The position numbers and the translations under genes are program-made. Below, one piece after another: positions 19,354 through 27,554 of a stretch of 64,000 bases of DNA. This stretch comes from Streptomyces sp. TRM49041 (GTDB lineage: Bacteria; Actinomycetota; Actinomycetes; Streptomycetales; Streptomycetaceae). The notes beneath the pieces were generated by a model that saw nothing but the letters and a program-made list of their open reading frames with translations, was not told where the DNA came from and did no database searches. Within the stretch, counting starts at the first letter, position 1. Each line of letters opens with the position of its first letter. The stretch lies in contig NZ_VSRY01000138.1 of the NCBI RefSeq assembly GCF_008271805.1, positions 1 to 64,000 on the forward strand, given 5' to 3'.

Positions 19354-20418
19354 CTACGGAGGCGGGGCCGACGTCGAGCCGCGGACCACCAGCTCCGGCT
19401 GGAAGACGAACTCGGTGCGCTGTACCGGGTTTCCGTCGATCTCCTCGAGGAGCGCGTCCACCGCCGCTGTCGCCATCGCCCGGACCGGCTGGCGGACCGT
19501 GGTCAGGGGTGGGTCCGTGAAGGGGATGAGGGGAGAGTCGTCGAAGCCCACCACCGAGATGTCGGTCGGGACGTCCAGACCTCTCGCGCGGACCGCGCGG
19601 ACAGCTCCGAGTGCCATCAGGTCGCTTCCGCACACGATGCCCGTGCAGCCCTGGTCCAGCAGGACGCTCGCCGCCGCGTGGCCGCCCTCCACGCCGAACA
19701 GGGTGGGCCGGACGTACTGCTGGGCCTCTTCGCGCGGCAGCCCCAGGAGTCGGTGCAGCGCCGACGCGAAGCCCTCGGCCTTGCGGCGGGCCGGCACGTA
19801 CCGGGTGGGGCCGATGGCGAGGCCGACGCGCTCGTGACCCAGCTCGACCAGGTGACCGACCGCCATGCGCGCGGCCGCGCGGTCGTCGGGTGAGACGAAG
19901 TGCGCGTCGATCCGCTCGTTGAAGCCGTTGATGAGGACGAACGGGACACCGCGGGCGGCCAGTCGCTCGTAGCGGGAGGGGTCGGCGCTCGTGTCCGCGT
20001 GCAGGCCCGACAGGAACACGATGCCCGTCACGCCGCGCTCCTCCAGCTGCTCGACCAGCTCGTCCTCGGTGGCGCCGCCCGGCATCTGGGTGCACAGCAC
20101 CGGCGTGTAGCCGTGGCCGGCCAGGGTCTGCTCGATGACCTGGGCGAACGCCGGGAAGATGGGGTTGGTCAGCTCCGGGATCACCAGCCCCACCAGTCCT
20201 GCGCTGCGCTGCTTCAGGCGTACGGGGCGCTCGTAGCCCAGCACGTCGAGCGCGGCCAGCACCCGATGGCGGGTCGGTCCCGCGACACCCGCCTTGCCGT
20301 TGAGCACCCGGCTGACCGTGGCCTCGCTGACGCCCGCCTGGGCCGCGATGTCCGCGAGCCGCGGAGCGGCGCCGGCGGTCAGGTCGCCGGCGCCGCCCCG
20401 CGGCGGGGGGATGGTCAC
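19354..20418 (-). CDS. malR: LacI-family regulator, MalR-like (copy 1)
   Basis: The start is GTG at 20418, overlapping the aglA stop as GTGA, so the two are translationally coupled. The protein has 354 residues. The first 20 are a Pro/Gly-rich extension, followed by the LacI helix-turn-helix RLADIAAQAGVSEATVSRVL and hinge, then a periplasmic-binding-protein-like sensor domain (LVGLVIPELTNPIFPAFAQV, PFVLINGFNERI, SVVGFDDSPLIPFTDPPLTT). It is very similar throughout to the second LacI protein at 27580, with an almost identical recognition helix. It probably represses maltose genes and is released by maltodextrin. It is the last gene of malE-malF-malG-aglA-malR. It ends 14 bp from the convergent symporter gene. 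Confidence 0.9.
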   Translation of the reverse strand: MTIPPPRGGAGDLTAGAAPRLADIAAQAGVSEATVSRVLNGKAGVAGPTRHRVLAALDVLGYERPVRLKQRSAGLVGLVIPELTNPIFPAFAQVIEQTLAGHGYTPVLCTQMPGGATEDELVEQLEERGVTGIVFLSGLHADTSADPSRYERLAARGVPFVLINGFNERIDAHFVSPDDRAAARMAVGHLVELGHERVGLAIGPTRYVPARRKAEGFASALHRLLGLPREEAQQYVRPTLFGVEGGHAAASVLLDQGCTGIVCGSDLMALGAVRAVRARGLDVPTDISVVGFDDSPLIPFTDPPLTTVRQPVRAMATAAVDALLEEIDGNPVQRTEFVFQPELVVRGSTSAPPP

Positions 20419-22067
20419 ACCGCCCACCAGACGGTGGTGTCGGCGGGCAGTTCCGCCGTGCCGTCCACGCTCGTCCGGACCTGCTCGTTGGCCAGCAGCA
20501 TCCGGCCCGGCACCTCTATACGGACCGGCTCCCCGGTGGTGTTGGCCGTGCAGACGAAGCCTTCGCGGCGGAACATCAGCACTCCCTCCGGAGCCTCCAG
20601 CCACTCCACCGCCTCACCCGCGCCCAGCCCCGGCTCCTCGCGGCGGACGCGCAGAGCGGCGCGGTACAGCTCCAGGGTGGAGCCGGCCACTCCGGTCTGG
20701 GCCTCGACACTCAGGGCGCCCCATGTGGTGGGCTGGGGCAGCCAGCTGCCGCCGGCGCCGAAGCCGTACGACGGGCCCTCCACCGCCCAGGGGATCGGCA
20801 CGCGGCAGCCGTCCCGGAAGCCGTCCTGGCCGGTGGCGCGGAAGAACGACGGGTCCTGGCGCACCTCGTCCGGCAGGTCGGTGACGTCCGGCAGGCCGAG
20901 CTCCTCGCCCTGGTAGACGTACGCGGAGCCGGGCAGGGCCAGCATCAGCAGGGTCGCGGCGCGGGCGCGGCGCAGGCCGAGTTCGCGGTCGCCGGCCTCG
21001 CGCAGCTGGGTGCCGAGCCCGGCGGGGTTGGCGAACCGGGTCGCGTGACGGGTCACGTCGTGGTTGGACAGCACCCATGTCGTCGGCGCGCCGACCGGGC
21101 GCATCGCCTCCAGCGACGCGTCGATGACCTTGCGCAGCTCCGCCGCGTCCCAGTGCGTGCCCAGGTACTGGAAGTTGAACGCCTGGTGCATCTCGTCGGG
21201 GCGGACGTAGTTCGCGGTGCGGTCGACCGTCGGGGTCCACGCCTCGGCGACGAGGACGCGCTCGCCGTCGTACTCCTCCAGGACCTGGCGCCAGCTGCGG
21301 TAGATCTCGTGGACGCCGTCCTGGTCGAAGAACGGCATCACGTCGTTGCCGAGGAGCTTCAGCTGCTCGTGGGAGCCGATGTCGGGCAGCCCGGGCGCCT
21401 TGACGAGGCCGTGGGCGACATCGACGCGGAAGCCGTCGACGCCCATGTCGAGCCAGAAGCGCAGGATGGAGCGGAACTCGTCGCGTACGGCGGGGTGTTC
21501 CCAGTTGAAGTCGGGCTGCTCGGGGGCGAACAGGTGGAGGTACCACTCACCGTCCTCGACACGTGTCCAGGCCGGGCCGCCGAAGATGGACTCCCAGTCG
21601 TTCGGAGGGAGTGCGCCGTCCGGGCCCTTGCCGGGGCGGAAGTGATAGCGCTCGCGCAGCGGCGACCCGGGGCCCTCGCGCAGGGCGCGCTGGAACCACT
21701 CGTGCTGGTCGGAGGAGTGGTTGGGGACCAGGTCGACGATGATGCGCAGGCCGAGCTCATGGGCCTCGCGGACGAGCGCGTCGGCGTCCAGCAGGTTGCC
21801 GAACATGGGGTCGATGGCCCGGTAGTCGGCGACGTCGTAGCCGGCGTCGGCCTGCGGGGAGGCGTAGAAGGGGCTGAGCCAGACGGCGTCGACGCCGAGG
21901 TCCCTGAGGTACGGGAGGCGGCTGCGGATGCCCTCGAGGTCGCCCATGCCGTCGCCGTTGCCGTCGGCGAAGCTGCGCGGATAGACCTGGTAGATCACCG
22001 CCTCTCTCCACCAGCCGGAGTCCGTGCCGGTGGTCGGGGCGGCGGGGGCGGCGAGGTGCTGGGTCAT
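20415..22067 (-). CDS. aglA: Cytoplasmic alpha-glucosidase, GH13 (copy 1)
   Basis: The 550-residue enzyme has no signal peptide. GH13 oligo-1,6/alpha-glucosidase motifs are complete: DLVPNHSSDQH, GVDGFRVDVAHG (nucleophile Asp about 215), VLVAEAWTP (acid/base Glu) and LSNHDVTRH. It hydrolyses imported maltodextrins to glucose. It follows malG on the same strand after a 127-bp gap containing an imperfect hairpin, and overlaps the malR copy 1 start by 4 bp. This fits co-transcription with the transporter. A paralogue of the same enzyme is encoded at 25791 on the other strand. The paralogue lacks the segment after NHDVTRHATRFANPAG seen here and carries an insertion before its catalytic Glu. Confidence 0.92.
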   Translation of the reverse strand: MTQHLAAPAAPTTGTDSGWWREAVIYQVYPRSFADGNGDGMGDLEGIRSRLPYLRDLGVDAVWLSPFYASPQADAGYDVADYRAIDPMFGNLLDADALVREAHELGLRIIVDLVPNHSSDQHEWFQRALREGPGSPLRERYHFRPGKGPDGALPPNDWESIFGGPAWTRVEDGEWYLHLFAPEQPDFNWEHPAVRDEFRSILRFWLDMGVDGFRVDVAHGLVKAPGLPDIGSHEQLKLLGNDVMPFFDQDGVHEIYRSWRQVLEEYDGERVLVAEAWTPTVDRTANYVRPDEMHQAFNFQYLGTHWDAAELRKVIDASLEAMRPVGAPTTWVLSNHDVTRHATRFANPAGLGTQLREAGDRELGLRRARAATLLMLALPGSAYVYQGEELGLPDVTDLPDEVRQDPSFFRATGQDGFRDGCRVPIPWAVEGPSYGFGAGGSWLPQPTTWGALSVEAQTGVAGSTLELYRAALRVRREEPGLGAGEAVEWLEAPEGVLMFRREGFVCTANTTGEPVRIEVPGRMLLANEQVRTSVDGTAELPADTTVWWAV

Positions 22068-22194: not shown

Positions 22195-23136
22195 TCAGCC
22201 CTTGGTGCCGCCCGCGGTGAGGCCGGCGACCAGGTTGCGCTGGACCAGGAGGAACACCAGGCCCGCCGGAACCGTGATGATCACCGCACAGGCGGTCAGA
22301 TAGCCCCACTCGGCCTTGTGCTGGCCGATGAAGCTCTGCAGGCCGACGGAGAGGGTGAGCATCGAGTCGCTGGACAGGAAGGCGCGGGCGAAGGCGACCT
22401 CGCTCCACGCGGTGAGGAAGGAGTAGAACGCCGTGACCGCGAGGCCGGGCTTGGCCAGCGGCAGGATCAGCCGGTAGAAGGTGCCGAACGGGGTGAGCCC
22501 GTCGACCCGGCCGGCCTCGTCGATCTCGTGCGGGATGGTGTCGAAGTAGCCCTTCATCATCCACGCGCAGAACGGCACGGACACGGAGCAGTACGTGAGG
22601 ATCAGGCCCATGTACGAGTCGAGCAGGCCCATGCCGCCGAGGATGTTGTAGAGGGCGACGATCAGCACCGCCACCGGGAACATCTGCGTGACGAGCAGCA
22701 CCCACATCAGCGACCTGTGGCCGGGGAAGCGCATCCGGGAGATGGCGTAGCCGGTGGAGGCCGCGACGAACACCCCGATGAGCGTGGTGCCGCCCGCGAC
22801 GACCACCGAGTTGGCGAACCAGCGCGGGAACTCGGTCTCCGCCAGGACGTACGTGTAGTTGCTGATCTCCAGGCCGCCCTCGGCGCTGGTCGGCTTCGTC
22901 CAGCCGTCCCGGCCGCGCAGCGAGATGAACATCATGTACACGATGGGGAAGACCGCCACCAGACTGGCGGCGACCAGTGCCGCGTGGAGTCCGGCGGAGG
23001 CGAGCGGGGAGCGCTCGTCACGGCCGCGGACCTTGCGCCGCCGGGTACCACGGGTACCACGGGCGCCGGCGGTCGCGGCGGAGTCGCCGGCGCGCGCCGG
23101 CACGGAGTTCTTCCGCGGTTCGGTCACCGTGCTCAT
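22195..23136 (-). CDS. malG: Maltose/maltodextrin ABC transporter permease MalG
   Basis: The 313-residue inner-membrane subunit has a cytoplasmic N-terminus of about 45 residues, then six hydrophobic segments. The EAA-loop that docks with the ATPase is visible as DEAGRVDGLTPFGTFYRLIL. The start ATG at 23136 overlaps the malF stop as ATGA and has AGGAG 9 nt upstream. With MalF it forms the channel for maltodextrins delivered by MalE. No ATPase gene is present in the locus. In Streptomyces the shared ATPase MsiK, encoded elsewhere, energises such sugar importers (established knowledge). Confidence 0.93.
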   Translation of the reverse strand: MSTVTEPRKNSVPARAGDSAATAGARGTRGTRRRKVRGRDERSPLASAGLHAALVAASLVAVFPIVYMMFISLRGRDGWTKPTSAEGGLEISNYTYVLAETEFPRWFANSVVVAGGTTLIGVFVAASTGYAISRMRFPGHRSLMWVLLVTQMFPVAVLIVALYNILGGMGLLDSYMGLILTYCSVSVPFCAWMMKGYFDTIPHEIDEAGRVDGLTPFGTFYRLILPLAKPGLAVTAFYSFLTAWSEVAFARAFLSSDSMLTLSVGLQSFIGQHKAEWGYLTACAVIITVPAGLVFLLVQRNLVAGLTAGGTKG

Positions 23137-24119
23137 CGGACGGTCTCCTGACGGTTGAGCAGCCGCCGGTAGAAGACGGCGAAGACGAGGAGCATGGAGA
23201 GGATGAGGATGCCGTACGTGGCGGCGCCCGCGTAGTCGCGGACGGAGCCGAACGCCAGCCGGTAGGCGTAGGTCACGAGGATCTCGCTGTGCAGGGCGTT
23301 GGCCTCACCGAGCATCAGATAGATGATCGGGAACATGTTGAACGTCCAGATGGTGCCGAGCAGGATCACCGTGGCGCTGACGGGGCGCAGCCCCGGCAGG
23401 GTGACGTGGCGGAACCGCTGCCAGGCGTTCGCGCCGTCCATCTCGGCGGCTTCGTACTGCTCGCCGGCGATGGACTGGAGGCCGCCGAGCACGGCGACCA
23501 TCATGAACGGCACACCGAGCCAGACGTTGACGCCGATGACGGCGACCTTCTGCATGAAGGTGTCGCCGAGCCAGTCGACCGGGCCGAGGCCCAACTGTCC
23601 CAGGATGGCGTTGAAGACACCGGACTCGGAGTTGTACATCATGCGCCAGATGTAGGTGGCGACGAAGGCCGGTACCGCCCACGGCAGGATGAGCAGGACG
23701 CGGTACAGGGAGCGGCCCCTGACCTTGCGGTTGAGCAGCAGGGCCAGGCCGAGGCCGATCGTGTAGTGGAAGAACACGCAGGACGCGGTCCACACCACGG
23801 TCCACGCCAGCTTGGGGTAGAACTCGCCGTCGGCGCCGGACAGCACCCGCCAGTAGTTGTCGAGGCCGACGAACTGGTAGGTGGCGGGGATCTCGGTGGC
23901 GCCGAGCTGCTTGGAGACGTTGAGCTCGTTGGCGTCGGTGAACGACAGGTAGATGCCACGGCCCAGGGGGTAGGCGACGAGGACGCCGATGACCAGCACC
24001 ACCGGCAGCACCATGGCCCAGGCGTACCAGTTCCGGTCGTAGGAGCGCTTCATACGGGTGAGCAGCCCGGCCCGGGCAGGCCGCGCGGCCGTGGCGGGAT
24101 CTGCGCTGGCTGTCTTCAT
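23133..24119 (-). CDS. malF: Maltose/maltodextrin ABC transporter permease MalF
   Basis: The 328-residue polytopic protein has a short cytoplasmic N-terminus and about six hydrophobic segments. The EAA motif is YEAAEMDGANAWQRFRHVTL. A periplasmic-like loop (NELNVSKQLGATEIPATYQFVG) precedes the core, as in other binding-protein-dependent MalF-type permeases, though it is far smaller than in E. coli MalF. It overlaps malG by 4 bp. It is separated from malE by 84 bp that hold a strong hairpin. Confidence 0.93.
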   Translation of the reverse strand: MKTASADPATAARPARAGLLTRMKRSYDRNWYAWAMVLPVVLVIGVLVAYPLGRGIYLSFTDANELNVSKQLGATEIPATYQFVGLDNYWRVLSGADGEFYPKLAWTVVWTASCVFFHYTIGLGLALLLNRKVRGRSLYRVLLILPWAVPAFVATYIWRMMYNSESGVFNAILGQLGLGPVDWLGDTFMQKVAVIGVNVWLGVPFMMVAVLGGLQSIAGEQYEAAEMDGANAWQRFRHVTLPGLRPVSATVILLGTIWTFNMFPIIYLMLGEANALHSEILVTYAYRLAFGSVRDYAGAATYGILILSMLLVFAVFYRRLLNRQETVR

Positions 24120-24151
24120 GGAAGTTCTTTTCCCTCAGTGCGTACGGGTCC

Positions 24152-24195
24152 GGCCCGGTCCGGCAGCCCTGTCAGGGGGGCTGCCGGACCGGGCC
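24152..24195 (-). terminator. Perfect 17-bp hairpin between malE and malF
   Basis: GGCCCGGTCCGGCAGCC at 24152 and its exact complement at 24179 form a 17-bp stem with a 10-nt loop in the 84-bp malE-malF gap. Read on the minus strand it starts 9 nt after the malE stop codon. Such intercistronic structures commonly stabilise the binding-protein mRNA and reduce permease expression. Confidence 0.75.
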
Positions 24196-24203
24196 GCGGG
24201 GGC

Positions 24204-25481
24204 TCAGTCGACCGAGTACTCCTTGAGGGAGTTGATGTTGGTCTTCCACTTGTCGGCGGTGGTGTCGAGGCCCTTCTCGACGGTGGTGTTGCCCTTGAGG
24301 ATCTCGATGTACTGCTTGGTCCACTCGGCGAACATGTCGCTGACGCCGGCGACGGCGGGACGCGCGGTGGAGTCGGCCAGCACGTTCTTGAAGGAGGCGC
24401 GGATCGGGTCGGCGACGACCTTGACGGTGTACGCGTCGTCACGGGTCGGCAGGACGCCGGTCTCGGTGGCGGCGAACTCCTGCGACTTGGCGGAGGTCAT
24501 GAACGCCACGAACTTCTGGGCGGCTTCCTTGTGGGGGGCGTCCGAGCCGTTGTAGACGACCAGGTTGTGGCCGCCGGTGGGCGTGCCGGCCTTGCCACCG
24601 GAGCCGGCCGGGACCGGGGCGACACCGAGGTTGTCCTTGTTCTTGAACGCCTTGCCGCTCAGGTCGTCGGCCGTGGACCACGGGCCGTTGATGACCATGG
24701 CGACCCTGCCGTCCTTGAAGGCGGCCTGCATGTTGTTGTAGCCGTCGGTGTAGTCCGGCTTGACCGCGACGCCGTCCTTGATCATGTCGACGACGGTCTG
24801 GACGGCCTTCTTGCCGGCCTCGTCGTTGACGGTGATCTTCTTGGTCTCGGTGTCGACCATCAGGCCGCCCTCGCCGTACAGGAACGGCAGGGCGAAGTAG
24901 CTGTCCGGGTTGAGGTAGATGCCGTCGACGCCGGTCTTGGTCTTGATGCTCTTGGCGGCCGTGGAGAGCTCGGCCCAGGTCGTCGGCGGCTGGACGCCGG
25001 CCTTCGCGAAGATCTCCTTGTTGTAGAGGAGCGCGAGGGCGTCGGTGACCTGCGGGACGCCGTACAGCTTGCCGTCGACCTTGGCGCCGTCGACGAGGCC
25101 CTGGTTGAAGGAGTCGATCTCCTTGGTGGCGGGCGTGCCGTCGAGCGGGGCGAGGTACTGGTTCTCGGCGAGGCCGGCGGTCCAGCCGACGTCGGCACGG
25201 AGGACGTCGGGGGCGTTGCCGGCCTGGGCGGCCGTCTTGTACTTCTGCTCGGCCTCGGCGAACGGGACGTTCTGGTACTTGACCTTGATGTCCTTGTTGG
25301 CCGCTTCGAACTGCTCGATCAGCTTCTTGTAGGCCGGGGCCTCGTTCGTGGCATCCGAGGTGTCCCACCAGGTGATGGTCACCGGACCGCCGGTCGCCTT
25401 GTCCCCACTGTCGCCGCCGCAGGCCGTCGCCGCGAGGGCCAGGCTCGCGACCAGCGCGGTGGCCGCTATGCCACGCCGCAT
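24204..25481 (-). CDS. malE: Maltose/maltodextrin-binding lipoprotein MalE
   Basis: From the ATG at 25481 (AAGGAG upstream) the protein has 425 residues. The lipoprotein signal MRRGIAATALVASLALAATAC places the lipidated Cys at residue 21. The mature protein is a family 1 solute-binding protein (ITWWDTSD, NKDIKVKYQNVPFAEAEQKY, VAMVINGPWS, TPTGGHNLVVYNGS). It captures maltodextrins outside the membrane for MalFG. It is the first gene of the operon. A CTTGC-N11-GCAAG operator lies about 100 nt upstream. The remaining frame to 25622 is unsupported. Confidence 0.93.
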   Translation of the reverse strand: MRRGIAATALVASLALAATACGGDSGDKATGGPVTITWWDTSDATNEAPAYKKLIEQFEAANKDIKVKYQNVPFAEAEQKYKTAAQAGNAPDVLRADVGWTAGLAENQYLAPLDGTPATKEIDSFNQGLVDGAKVDGKLYGVPQVTDALALLYNKEIFAKAGVQPPTTWAELSTAAKSIKTKTGVDGIYLNPDSYFALPFLYGEGGLMVDTETKKITVNDEAGKKAVQTVVDMIKDGVAVKPDYTDGYNNMQAAFKDGRVAMVINGPWSTADDLSGKAFKNKDNLGVAPVPAGSGGKAGTPTGGHNLVVYNGSDAPHKEAAQKFVAFMTSAKSQEFAATETGVLPTRDDAYTVKVVADPIRASFKNVLADSTARPAVAGVSDMFAEWTKQYIEILKGNTTVEKGLDTTADKWKTNINSLKEYSVD

Positions 25482-25579
25482 GTGAACTCCTTCGAACGAT
25501 CCCGGTTGATGCAGACCGCTCTTTCGCGGGGCGCCGGGGTTGCCAGGAACGTAACAGGGATGAAAACGCGCCGAAAGAG

Positions 25580-25600
25580 CTTGCGGCAAATTTCTGCAAG
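25580..25600 (-). promoter_or_regulatory. Putative MalR operator of the malE operon
   Basis: CTTGC (25580-25584) and GCAAG (25596-25600) form an inverted repeat with an 11-bp spacer, 99 nt upstream of the malE start codon. The same half-sites occur before the second aglA and around the amylase promoter. LacI-type MalR repression of malEFG in Streptomyces is established; this exact site is inferred. Confidence 0.65.
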
Positions 25601-25705
25601 GCCGGGGGATCGTTACATCCACGTGTCCCTACAGTTGCCGCCGCATCGCTTGACACACCAGGCACAAGGCGCCCTCGCACCCACCCGTGCGCCCCTCTGC
25701 CGGGC

Positions 25706-25754
25706 CTTGCGGGGCACCTGAAGGCTCTGCAAGCCTTTTCACAACGCCTTGCAG
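25706..25754 (+). promoter_or_regulatory. Putative MalR operators upstream of the second aglA
   Basis: CTTGC at 25706, GCAAG at 25729 and CTTGCAG at 25748 lie within the 85 bp before the ATG at 25791. They are the same half-sites as in front of malE, about 100 bp away on the other strand. The divergent malE and aglA promoters are therefore probably controlled by the same repressors. Confidence 0.6.
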
Positions 25755-25790
25755 GAGGTGTTGAATCCGGACCGAGAGGCACCCGCGCAC

Positions 25791-27554
25791 ATGGCCCACG
25801 AGCTGACCTCGCCCGTACCGGCGCCGCAGGGACGACGCCCCGCCCCACCAGCCCGTCCCGGGTGGTGGCGGGACGCCGTCATCTATCAGGTGTACATCCG
25901 TTCCTTCGCCGACAGCGACGGTGACGGCATCGGCGATCTGCGCGGGGCCCGGGAACGGCTGTCGCATCTGACGCGGCTGGGCGCGGACGCGGTGTGGCTG
26001 ACCCCGTTCTATGCCTCGCCGCAGGCCGACGGCGGCTACGACGTCGCCGACTACCGCGCGGTCGACCCGGTCTTCGGGGACCTGCCGGACGCGGACGACC
26101 TCGTCCGCACCGCGCACGAACTGGGCCTGCGGGTGATCATCGACATCGTCCCCAACCACACCTCCGACCGGCACCCCTGGTTCCAGGAGGCGCTCGCGGG
26201 CACCGGCCGTGACCGGTACCACTTCCGCCCCGGCAGGGGCCCGGACGGCGCGCTGCCGCCCAACGACTGGGAGTCCGTCTTCGGCGGCCCCGCCTGGACG
26301 AGGGTCGCCGACGGCCAGTGGTACCTGCACCTTTTCGCGCCCGAGCAGCCCGACCTCAACTGGGAGAACGACGCGGTGCGGGCCGAGTTCGAGTCCGTGC
26401 TGCGGTTCTGGCTGGACCTGGGCGTCGACGGGTTCCGGATCGATGTGGCGCACGGCATGGTCAAGGCCGCCGGGCTGCCCGACATCGGCCGTCCCGAGCA
26501 GGTCCGGCTGATCGGCTCCCAGCAGCTGCCGTTCTTCGACCAGGACGGCGTCCACGAGATCCACCGCGGCTGGCGGCGGCTCCTCGACACGTACTCCCCC
26601 AGGCTCTCCGAGCAGGGGGCACTCCCAAGTCAGCGCATCGCGGTCGCCGAGGCGTGGGCGCCGTCCCCGGAGCGGCTCGCCCTCTATGTACGCCCCGACG
26701 AACTGCACCAGGCGTTCAACTTCCAGTACCTCCAGTGCCCCTGGGAGGCCCGGGCACTGCACAGGGTGATCGACGAGTCGCTCAGGGCGACCACATCGGT
26801 GGGCGCGCCCACCACCTGGGTGCTCTCCAACCACGACGTCGTCCGGCACACCACGCGCTACGGCAGCCTGCGCAGGGCCAGGGCGGCGGCGCTGCTCATG
26901 CTGGCGCTGCCGGGCTCCGCCTATCTGTACCAGGGCGAGGAGCTGGGGCTGCCCGAGGTGACGGAACTCCCCGACGAGGTGCGCCAGGACCCGGCGTTCC
27001 ACCGCGGCGAGGGCCAGGACGGGCTGAGGGACGGCTGCCGGGTGCCGATCCCGTGGGCCGAGGAGGGCCCCTCGTACGGGTTCGGCCCAGGCGACAGCTG
27101 GCTGCCGCAGCCCGCGGGGTGGGGCCGGCTGTCCGTCGAGGCCCAGACCGGCGACCCTGCGTCGACCCTGGAGCTCTACCGCACGGCCCTGGACCTGCGC
27201 CGTGCGCACCCGGCGCTCGGCGCGGGCGGCCTCGTCGACTGGCTGCCCGCACCGGAGGGCGTGCTGGCCTTCCGCCGCCGCGGGGAGGACGGCGCCGGCC
27301 TGGTGTGCGTCACCAACACCACGGACCGCCCGGTCGAGATCCACCGCCCCGGCGGCCGGGACGGCCGGGTGCTGCTGTCCAGCGTGGCGGGGGCGGCGGT
27401 CGGGCAGGGTGGGCCCGACAACCCGGGAGCGGCCGCCTCCGACGCTTCCGGTGGCGGCGGGGACAGCCGTCCGGGCGGCGCCCGGGAGGGCACGGCGAGC
27501 GCACCCGCGCTCGCGGTGCTCCCCGCCGACTCCTGCACGTGGTGGGCAATCTGA
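25791..27554 (+). CDS. aglA: Cytoplasmic alpha-glucosidase, GH13 (copy 2)
   Basis: From ATG 25791 the protein has 587 residues. An upstream in-frame TTG at 25749 overlaps the operator repeat and the AGGAGG, so I prefer the ATG. GH13 motifs are intact: [31 protein letters not shown] and LSNHDVVRH. It is a close paralogue of the enzyme at 20415. Differences are a 10-residue insertion (RLSEQGALPS) just before the catalytic Glu, encoded by a palindromic repeat; a deletion of roughly 17 residues after NHDVVRHTTRYG; and a Gly/Ala-rich C-terminal insertion (about 45 residues, DASGGGGDSRPGG) before the final CTWWAI. It is followed by the second LacI gene. Confidence 0.9.
   Translation: MAHELTSPVPAPQGRRPAPPARPGWWRDAVIYQVYIRSFADSDGDGIGDLRGARERLSHLTRLGADAVWLTPFYASPQADGGYDVADYRAVDPVFGDLPDADDLVRTAHELGLRVIIDIVPNHTSDRHPWFQEALAGTGRDRYHFRPGRGPDGALPPNDWESVFGGPAWTRVADGQWYLHLFAPEQPDLNWENDAVRAEFESVLRFWLDLGVDGFRIDVAHGMVKAAGLPDIGRPEQVRLIGSQQLPFFDQDGVHEIHRGWRRLLDTYSPRLSEQGALPSQRIAVAEAWAPSPERLALYVRPDELHQAFNFQYLQCPWEARALHRVIDESLRATTSVGAPTTWVLSNHDVVRHTTRYGSLRRARAAALLMLALPGSAYLYQGEELGLPEVTELPDEVRQDPAFHRGEGQDGLRDGCRVPIPWAEEGPSYGFGPGDSWLPQPAGWGRLSVEAQTGDPASTLELYRTALDLRRAHPALGAGGLVDWLPAPEGVLAFRRRGEDGAGLVCVTNTTDRPVEIHRPGGRDGRVLLSSVAGAAVGQGGPDNPGAAASDASGGGGDSRPGGAREGTASAPALAVLPADSCTWWAI
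26591..26630 (+). repeat. Palindromic repeat inserted in frame in aglA copy 2
   Basis: The core at 26596-26619 can fold as CCCCC-A-GGCTC with GAGC-A-GGGGG around a 3-nt loop. It codes for SPRLSEQGALPSQ, exactly where AglA copy 1 has just DGE. Flanking residues align closely in both paralogues, so the element was added to copy 2. It resembles short palindromes dispersed through Streptomyces genomes (recollection, not searched). Confidence 0.6.

Follow-up and report, generated by a model that had tools for sequence, protein, structure and literature searches.

The window (the whole stretch of 64,000 nucleotides that was analysed) contains two alpha-glucosidase genes in divergent orientation, which flank putative ABC transporter genes. 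One of them, AglA copy 2, carries a short palindromic segment within its reading frame that is absent from the other, AglA copy 1. The question raised by this locus is where such a segment has come from, how it is accommodated in an enzyme gene and whether it alters the enzyme. The features concerned are listed below; the three ORFs lying between the two copies bear presumptive family names.

20415..22067, minus strand: AglA copy 1, the paralogue without the insertion (LEEYDGERVLVAEAW), from its ORF and site comparison
22195..25622, minus strand: two presumed ABC permease ORFs and one presumed solute-binding-protein ORF between both aglA copies, from ORF translations
25749..27554, plus strand: AglA copy 2, a GH13 alpha-glucosidase with the insertion, from a 601-codon ORF, Pfam and a structure match
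26595..26627, plus strand: PAL element TCCCCCAGGCTCTCCGAGCAGGGGGCACTCCCA, 33 bp, 29/33 to its sub-family consensus, one of six near copies in its own genome
26595..26633, plus strand: 13 codons, SPRLSEQGALPSQ, residues 283-295, against 3 codons (xGx) in the nearest relatives, from site comparison
26596..26619, plus strand: hairpin, CCCCC (26596-26600) pairing with GGGGG (26615-26619) and GCTC (26603-26606) with GAGC (26610-26613), loop TCC, from folding
26646..26657, plus strand: AEAW motif, residues 300-303, from translation

AglA copy 2, whose true start is probably the ATG at codon 15, contains a GH13 catalytic domain (Pfam PF00128 Alpha-amylase, 2.6e-99). Its best match among solved structures is the GH13_30 alpha-glucosidase CmmB (8yie; Z 28.0, rmsd 3.6, 46% identity over 488 aligned residues), and a second structure of CmmB, 8yif, gives Z 27.4. 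Residues A300, E301, A302 and W303 of the AEAW motif are invariant in a 37-row alignment, and Glu301 corresponds to the acid/base residue of the GH13 family.

An in-frame insert in AglA copy 2

Positions 26592-26636 read TAC, TCCCCCAGGCTCTCCGAGCAGGGGGCACTCCCA, AGTCAG and CGC, in frame within the ORF of AglA copy 2. At the protein level copy 2 has Y-SPRLSEQGALPSQ-RIAVAEAW where copy 1 has Y-DGE-RVLVAEAW, that is 13 codons against 3, a net gain of 10 residues and 30 bp in frame. This agrees with the original prediction of about 10 extra residues relative to the paralogue. The palindrome which had been placed at 26591-26630 is also real, but its borders shift to 26595-26627 for the element and to 26595-26633 for the altered codons. 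Likewise, the insertion lies close upstream of AEAW, although not directly before it as had been proposed, because four residues (R-I-A-V) intervene.

The segment folds into a hairpin as described earlier, with a DNA folding energy of -8.1 kcal/mol. However, this energy is equalled by 8 of 200 dinucleotide shuffles, and with the hairpin folded as RNA 25 of 200 shuffles fold equally well. The repeat finder, at the settings used, reported no inverted pair at the insert, and no Rfam match was found in 26400-26800 up to E 1. The hairpin alone is weak evidence, its strength being not unusual for such composition. The insert stands above chance because it belongs to a dispersed repeat family, here named PAL. 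Our analysis suggests that the 33-bp segment is very probably a copy of PAL which has been inserted in aglA and kept in a tolerant loop, the same site having been reused by PAL and by a second palindrome, REP2.

PAL is a dispersed repeat of Streptomyces

PAL is a dispersed palindromic repeat of Streptomyces, about 29-35 bp in length and roughly of the form CT-CCCCCA-stem/loop-GGGGG-NN-CCCCCA. The element in copy 2 agrees with the consensus of its PAL sub-family at 29 of 33 positions, whereas the highest score against the consensus among 90 aglA genes without an insert, their site codons cut out, is 22 of 33. A search with a 24-base core at up to 3 mismatches reveals six copies in its own genome (7.49 Mb, the aglA copy included) and none with the reversed control, and one pattern for the PAL family has 1 match in the window against 0.03 expected. 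A wider pattern (CCCCCAG, 4-16 bases, GGGGGNACNCCC) matches 28 of 31 chosen genomes, with 125 copies in genome G061 and a single control match over all 31 genomes (in G062). The sub-family CCCCCAAGC...GCAGGGGG is present in four of 17 chosen genomes (17 copies in G138, two in the own genome, two in G062 and one in G243; two control matches in all). Thus the insert does have dispersed copies elsewhere, and its suspected likeness to short intergenic repeats of Streptomyces is explained, as the element is an inserted copy of the dispersed, mostly intergenic PAL.

In the own genome the wider pattern matches the aglA copy only and a looser pattern has 3 matches against 5 in its control, so this genome is poor in PAL copies; the exact element at 3 mismatches finds only itself there. 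No dispersed donor was seen in G003 and G243, where the patterns used matched the aglA copy only. PAL-like DNA is also present in 7 of 72,556 plasmid records, all of Streptomyces (E 0.002 to 0.09), and six of the seven matches have no listed gene beneath them in a gene table which is incomplete. Some copies are part of larger arrangements. Just downstream of one own-genome PAL-like copy (L178), GACGGGCA-like units form a short tandem array, and the variants at L137 and L124 are extended by a further arm (CCCAGCGGTRGCTGGGG), giving a longer palindrome with more arms.

PAL recurs at one codon of aglA

A scan of genome contigs for aglA yielded at least 79 distinct loci, and 60 of 61 genomes searched with the AglA protein gave a match. 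In a 140-row DNA tree of aglA the copy-2 clade comprises 36 rows, namely the own gene with PAL, 8 rows with other extras and 27 with none. PAL is absent from the other 35 rows of this clade, and the nearest relatives among the sampled loci (L002, L003, L004 and L082) have xGx at the site. The segment is therefore not common to all orthologues of copy 2 while homologous repeats are dispersed outside the gene, and comparison of the orthologues brings filled and empty near relatives side by side. One contig in the tree, L039, is titled Microtetraspora glauca NRRL B-3735 but its aglA falls tightly inside Streptomyces, which points to a mislabelled strain or a transfer.

In 13 of 392 genomes of the genus, the codons for LDxY and R(I/V)xVAEA are separated by 12-42 bases; the reversed control gave two matches (G117 and G128). 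Six of the 13 carry PAL (G000, G003, G138, G243, G364 and G410; G410 and G061 are apparently one assembly), six carry short non-palindromic extras and G377 carries a palindrome which is not a member of the family. All six PAL in aglA begin at the base after TAC (Tyr), in one orientation and one frame, with a net gain of 24, 27 or 30 bp. On the 140-row DNA tree the six PAL rows require five changes, which may be losses or gains, 49 of its 137 inner branches having support below 80. If only well-supported branches are considered, the protein tree forces 3 changes and the DNA tree 5, counted against other labelled rows only and with L155 then still labelled PAL.

The PAL rows are best read as repeated gains at the same codon. 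The PAL stems in aglA differ between lineages, and in G061 and G138 the aglA copy matches the sub-family that is scattered through that genome, with 0/30 and 2/33 mismatches, respectively. The own element shares 88% identity with that of G138, against 70% for the 300 bases around it, which favours separate arrival of the element over gene transfer; other pairs of PAL rows, such as L150/L154 (element 88%, flanks 88%) and L096/L147 (87% and 94%), agree with either history. In the aglA copies of the GCTC type (L001 and L154, from the own genome and G138) the triplet TCC (Ser) is found, whereas the dispersed copies of G138 have TTC in 10 of 17 and TAC in 5 of 17. The own-genome copy L177, outside aglA, likewise has TCC.

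A very different account would be that the loop is simply variable in length and that its palindrome arose by chance in GC-rich coding DNA or through local slippage. Non-palindromic extras do occur at this loop in 11 of the 140 rows as first labelled; of these L060 was later moved to REP2, while L155 and L239 were added to the group. Moreover, the palindrome of L155, with 11/33 mismatches, fits PAL no better than the best chance match and was rejected as a member, and the hairpin alone is equalled by the 8 of 200 shuffles mentioned above. However, the 29/33 family match against a best of 22/33 in the empty genes, and the repeated presence of this family at one codon, make this account very improbable. 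The match to the PAL family largely refutes a chance hairpin, though the folding energy alone does not.

A second palindrome, REP2, occupies the same loop

When 110 loci were first read, 18 of the entries listed had anchors more than 31 residues apart (among them L001 and L081, which are the same gene), and L012 gave no match. Seven of these 18 long entries share about 54 bp around GGGGCCCGAAGGGCCTTCCGCGGAAGGGC, the element REP2, two of them in diverged form. Among 393 genomes of the genus (at least 99% complete), 43-73 bases at the site were found in 32, of which 31 resemble REP2 by eye and one, G424, does not. L239, labelled REP2 at first by rule, was reassigned to other extras. Distribution of REP2 is patchy, its 32 rows requiring 20 changes on the 140-row tree, and even sister rows differ (L062 is REP2-filled, L073 is empty). 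In 477 of 496 pairs the identity of the REP2 element exceeds the third-position identity of the flanks, the element mean being taken over all codon positions.

No REP2 is present in the own genome at up to 3 mismatches. When 14 chosen genomes, seven of them picked for carrying REP2 in aglA, were searched with a REP2 pattern, 8 of them contained 11 matches in total, against one match in the control (G009). By position six of the 11 are in aglA; three are in frame in anthranilate-synthase-like genes, one is in frame and reversed in a tricorn-protease gene and one lies outside any recognisable frame. At the anthranilate-synthase site, 33 loci divide into 6 filled (from four genomes, two of them read twice, and one eroded), 18 with a single residue between the anchors, 1 with none and 8 where the pattern does not match. 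The anthranilate-synthase-like gene of G138 (L226:877-2949) has REP2 in its chorismate-binding part and PAL in its amidotransferase part, and L043 has a reversed REP2 at a different loop of AglA copy 2.

The distribution of the elements could also result from one or a few old insertions followed by many losses, or from recombination that carried a filled aglA allele from one species to another. The identity of base, frame and orientation each time, the 20 changes required by REP2 and the difference between near sisters such as L062 and L073 would all agree with this. In addition, on our reading the empty xGE codons could not be restored by simple deletion, which points to allele exchange. However, the PAL stems vary among lineages and the own element is closer to that of G138 than its flanks are (88% against 70%), and we consider this history unlikely, though still a serious contender. 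We infer that most of the PAL and REP2 occurrences in aglA are separate insertions, but REP2 may have spread either by insertion or by exchange of aglA alleles.

PAL copies are mostly found between genes

The location of PAL copies relative to reading frames was assigned with a codon model trained on aglA itself. In G061, 40 stretches of the 125 copies divide into 36 non-coding, 3 at a gene edge and 1 in frame; of the 15 copies examined among the 17 of G138, one is in frame and 14 are non-coding. The in-frame copy of each genome is in aglA, at the same codon as in copy 2. For the two genomes together, 53 of the 55 copies examined (of 142) are thus not read in frame within a gene. A set of 53 pattern-search loci, which includes the 15 from G138, comprises 27 non-coding, 13 edge, 6 in-frame and 1 partial case, and 6 loci without a position from the pattern used. 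The six in-frame cases are four in aglA, one in an aldo/keto reductase gene (L130) and a weak one (L127).

Two of the six copies in the own genome are in frame, namely the one in aglA and a reversed copy in L179; L160, L177 and L178 are not in frame and L157 is ambiguous. The gene at L179:524-2380 encodes a metallophosphoesterase fused to a radical-SAM domain, and the reversed PAL encodes part of the linker. Near-full-length homologues of this protein were found in 3 of 40 other genomes searched. The PAL residues are missing from the homologues L262 and L263, and L264 shows 11 gap positions in the part of the alignment covered.

By eye, most PAL copies of G061 are nested in a different intergenic repeat (CGCGCAGTTCC^GCGCCCC), which also exists in empty form in that genome. 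Comparison of filled and empty host repeats reveals that about 30 bp replaces about 2 bp, with no visible duplication. Neither a target duplication nor an exact border of PAL was definable, because the ends are C-rich. Hairpin loops were also considered as the insertion target; in folds of two host repeats and two aglA sites, all of them empty, the site was not consistently in a loop and this rule was rejected.

The best reading of these data is that PAL and REP2 are non-autonomous palindromic repeats which occasionally enter genes and survive where the protein tolerates them. A PAL copy would have entered aglA just behind the codon for Tyr282 in exchange for a few bases, and would have been retained as the length change is a multiple of three and the loop accepts extra residues. 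PAL would have landed at the same codon in several lineages and the unrelated REP2 in the same loop, while insertions elsewhere in coding DNA would be purged. Tolerance of the loop would then act as a filter on insertions. The elements probably also have some target preference, because base, orientation and frame recur each time. Identical base, orientation and frame in six PAL is more than tolerance alone would give, and allele exchange or site-specific insertion could contribute.

Location of the insert in the predicted fold

The AlphaFold model of AglA copy 2, made with 37 rows, has a mean pLDDT of 65.4 and a pTM of 0.71, with 194 of 601 residues below 50. This model places the insert, which has pLDDT <50 at 285-293, after helix 265-282 and before strand 297-300, in the loop joining helix alpha-4 to strand beta-5 of the GH13 barrel. 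Glu301 follows the C-terminal end of strand 297-300, at the opposite end from the insert. The sequence alignment with 8yif, made with copy 1, has no insert at the site. In the TIM barrel of GH13 enzymes, helix-to-strand loops are located on the face opposite the active site, and nearness to Glu301 in sequence would therefore not be nearness in space.

Because of its proximity to the catalytic Glu, the insertion had been suggested to alter substrate choice and to form part of an active-site loop. Modelling does place the insert, but in a loop that is expected to lie off the active-site face. With the loop expected on the barrel face away from the catalytic Glu, an altered substrate choice appears unlikely from the model. 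The inserted peptide is probably disordered and its effect on the enzyme would be small, although it may affect AglA indirectly.

Recurrence at one loop of one gene could also be taken as a sign that the insertion is adaptive: the peptide might change how stable the enzyme is, how it oligomerises or which substrates it prefers, or the hairpin in the mRNA might tune expression. The TCC (Ser) of the GCTC-type aglA copies, where the dispersed G138 copies have TTC or TAC, looks as if adjusted to a protein surface. However, L177 has TCC outside aglA as well, most genomes are without an insert (12-42 bases in 13/392, 43-73 bases in 32/393), and in the model the insert has very low confidence and is expected on the face away from the active site. 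We regard adaptation as improbable, and caution that a peptide inserted in a Streptomyces enzyme should be tested before it is interpreted as a catalytic adaptation.

The loop occupied by PAL and REP2 is not the sole indel-prone loop of the protein, a possibility that was considered and rejected. In 111 proteins, insertions of at least 4 residues number 17 and 7 entries at the two consensus positions adjoining the loop, 15 near 396-397 and 27 at 487. Since other sites also take extras, tolerance alone does not single out the insert loop. The 11 longer printed insertions at 396-397 look like tandem extensions, unlike PAL and REP2. A long stretch rich in Gly, Ser and Ala is also present near the C-terminus of AglA copy 2 (window 27390-27540); it exceeds the majority columns at that site by 26 residues and by eye is neither a PAL nor a REP2 palindrome.

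Comparison with known palindromic elements

Protein-coding palindromes have been described chiefly in Rickettsia, and REPs inside genes are reported for some other phyla (PMC10969869, PMC3733652). RPE and intragenic REPs are the closest known kinds to PAL and REP2. As excerpted from PMC10969869, RPE are short palindromic repeats found in frame in unrelated protein genes and tolerated by the protein, and RPE-4 and RPE-6 are equated with REP-sized units in a part of PMC3733652. PAL and REP2 appear to behave likewise, being in frame in aglA, anthranilate-synthase-like, tricorn and aldo/keto reductase genes, so that the likeness drawn earlier to the Rickettsia palindromes holds as an analogy, with no claim of membership in the RPE family. 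They differ in length (about 150 bp for RPE, about 29-35 bp for PAL and about 54 bp for REP2), in hosts from a different phylum, in the mostly intergenic location of PAL and in the recurrence at one codon of one gene.

It is possible, and we offer it tentatively, that Streptomyces has at least two families of protein-coding palindromes and that the AglA alpha-4/beta-5 loop is a site-specific hotspot for both, an actinobacterial counterpart of RPE. If so, a single gene would be a repeated landing site and would allow a direct comparison of loop extensions of independent origin. PAL and REP2 in Streptomyces offer filled and empty alleles in close relatives and one loop reoccupied repeatedly, and the natural versions of AglA with different inserts at one position amount to an experiment on mobile repeats adding peptides.

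Prokaryotic MITEs are described in PMC10969869 as small dispersed elements that are not autonomous, bear inverted repeats and may become fused to genes in frame. PAL and REP2 appear to share these properties, and no target-site duplication was visible for PAL at the host repeats of G061. In S. coelicolor and E. coli, palindromic sequences that give short transcripts are mentioned in PMC4681348, in passages which do not describe the PAL family. No prior description of PAL or REP2 in Streptomyces was recognised from titles and abstract openings in a search that covered mainly openly accessible journals.

REP elements tagged GTAG or CGTC are presented in part of PMC3733652 as dispersed palindromes of 20-40 bp, mostly intergenic and sometimes in ORFs; its main text has no words beginning with 'Streptomyces' or 'actino'. 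PAL falls within this size range (20-40 bp) and has many intergenic copies (125 copies in G061). However, neither tag is seen by eye at the ends of PAL in 92 distinct pattern matches with flanks. In the same comparison of tags, the 3' arm of REP2 contains GACG.
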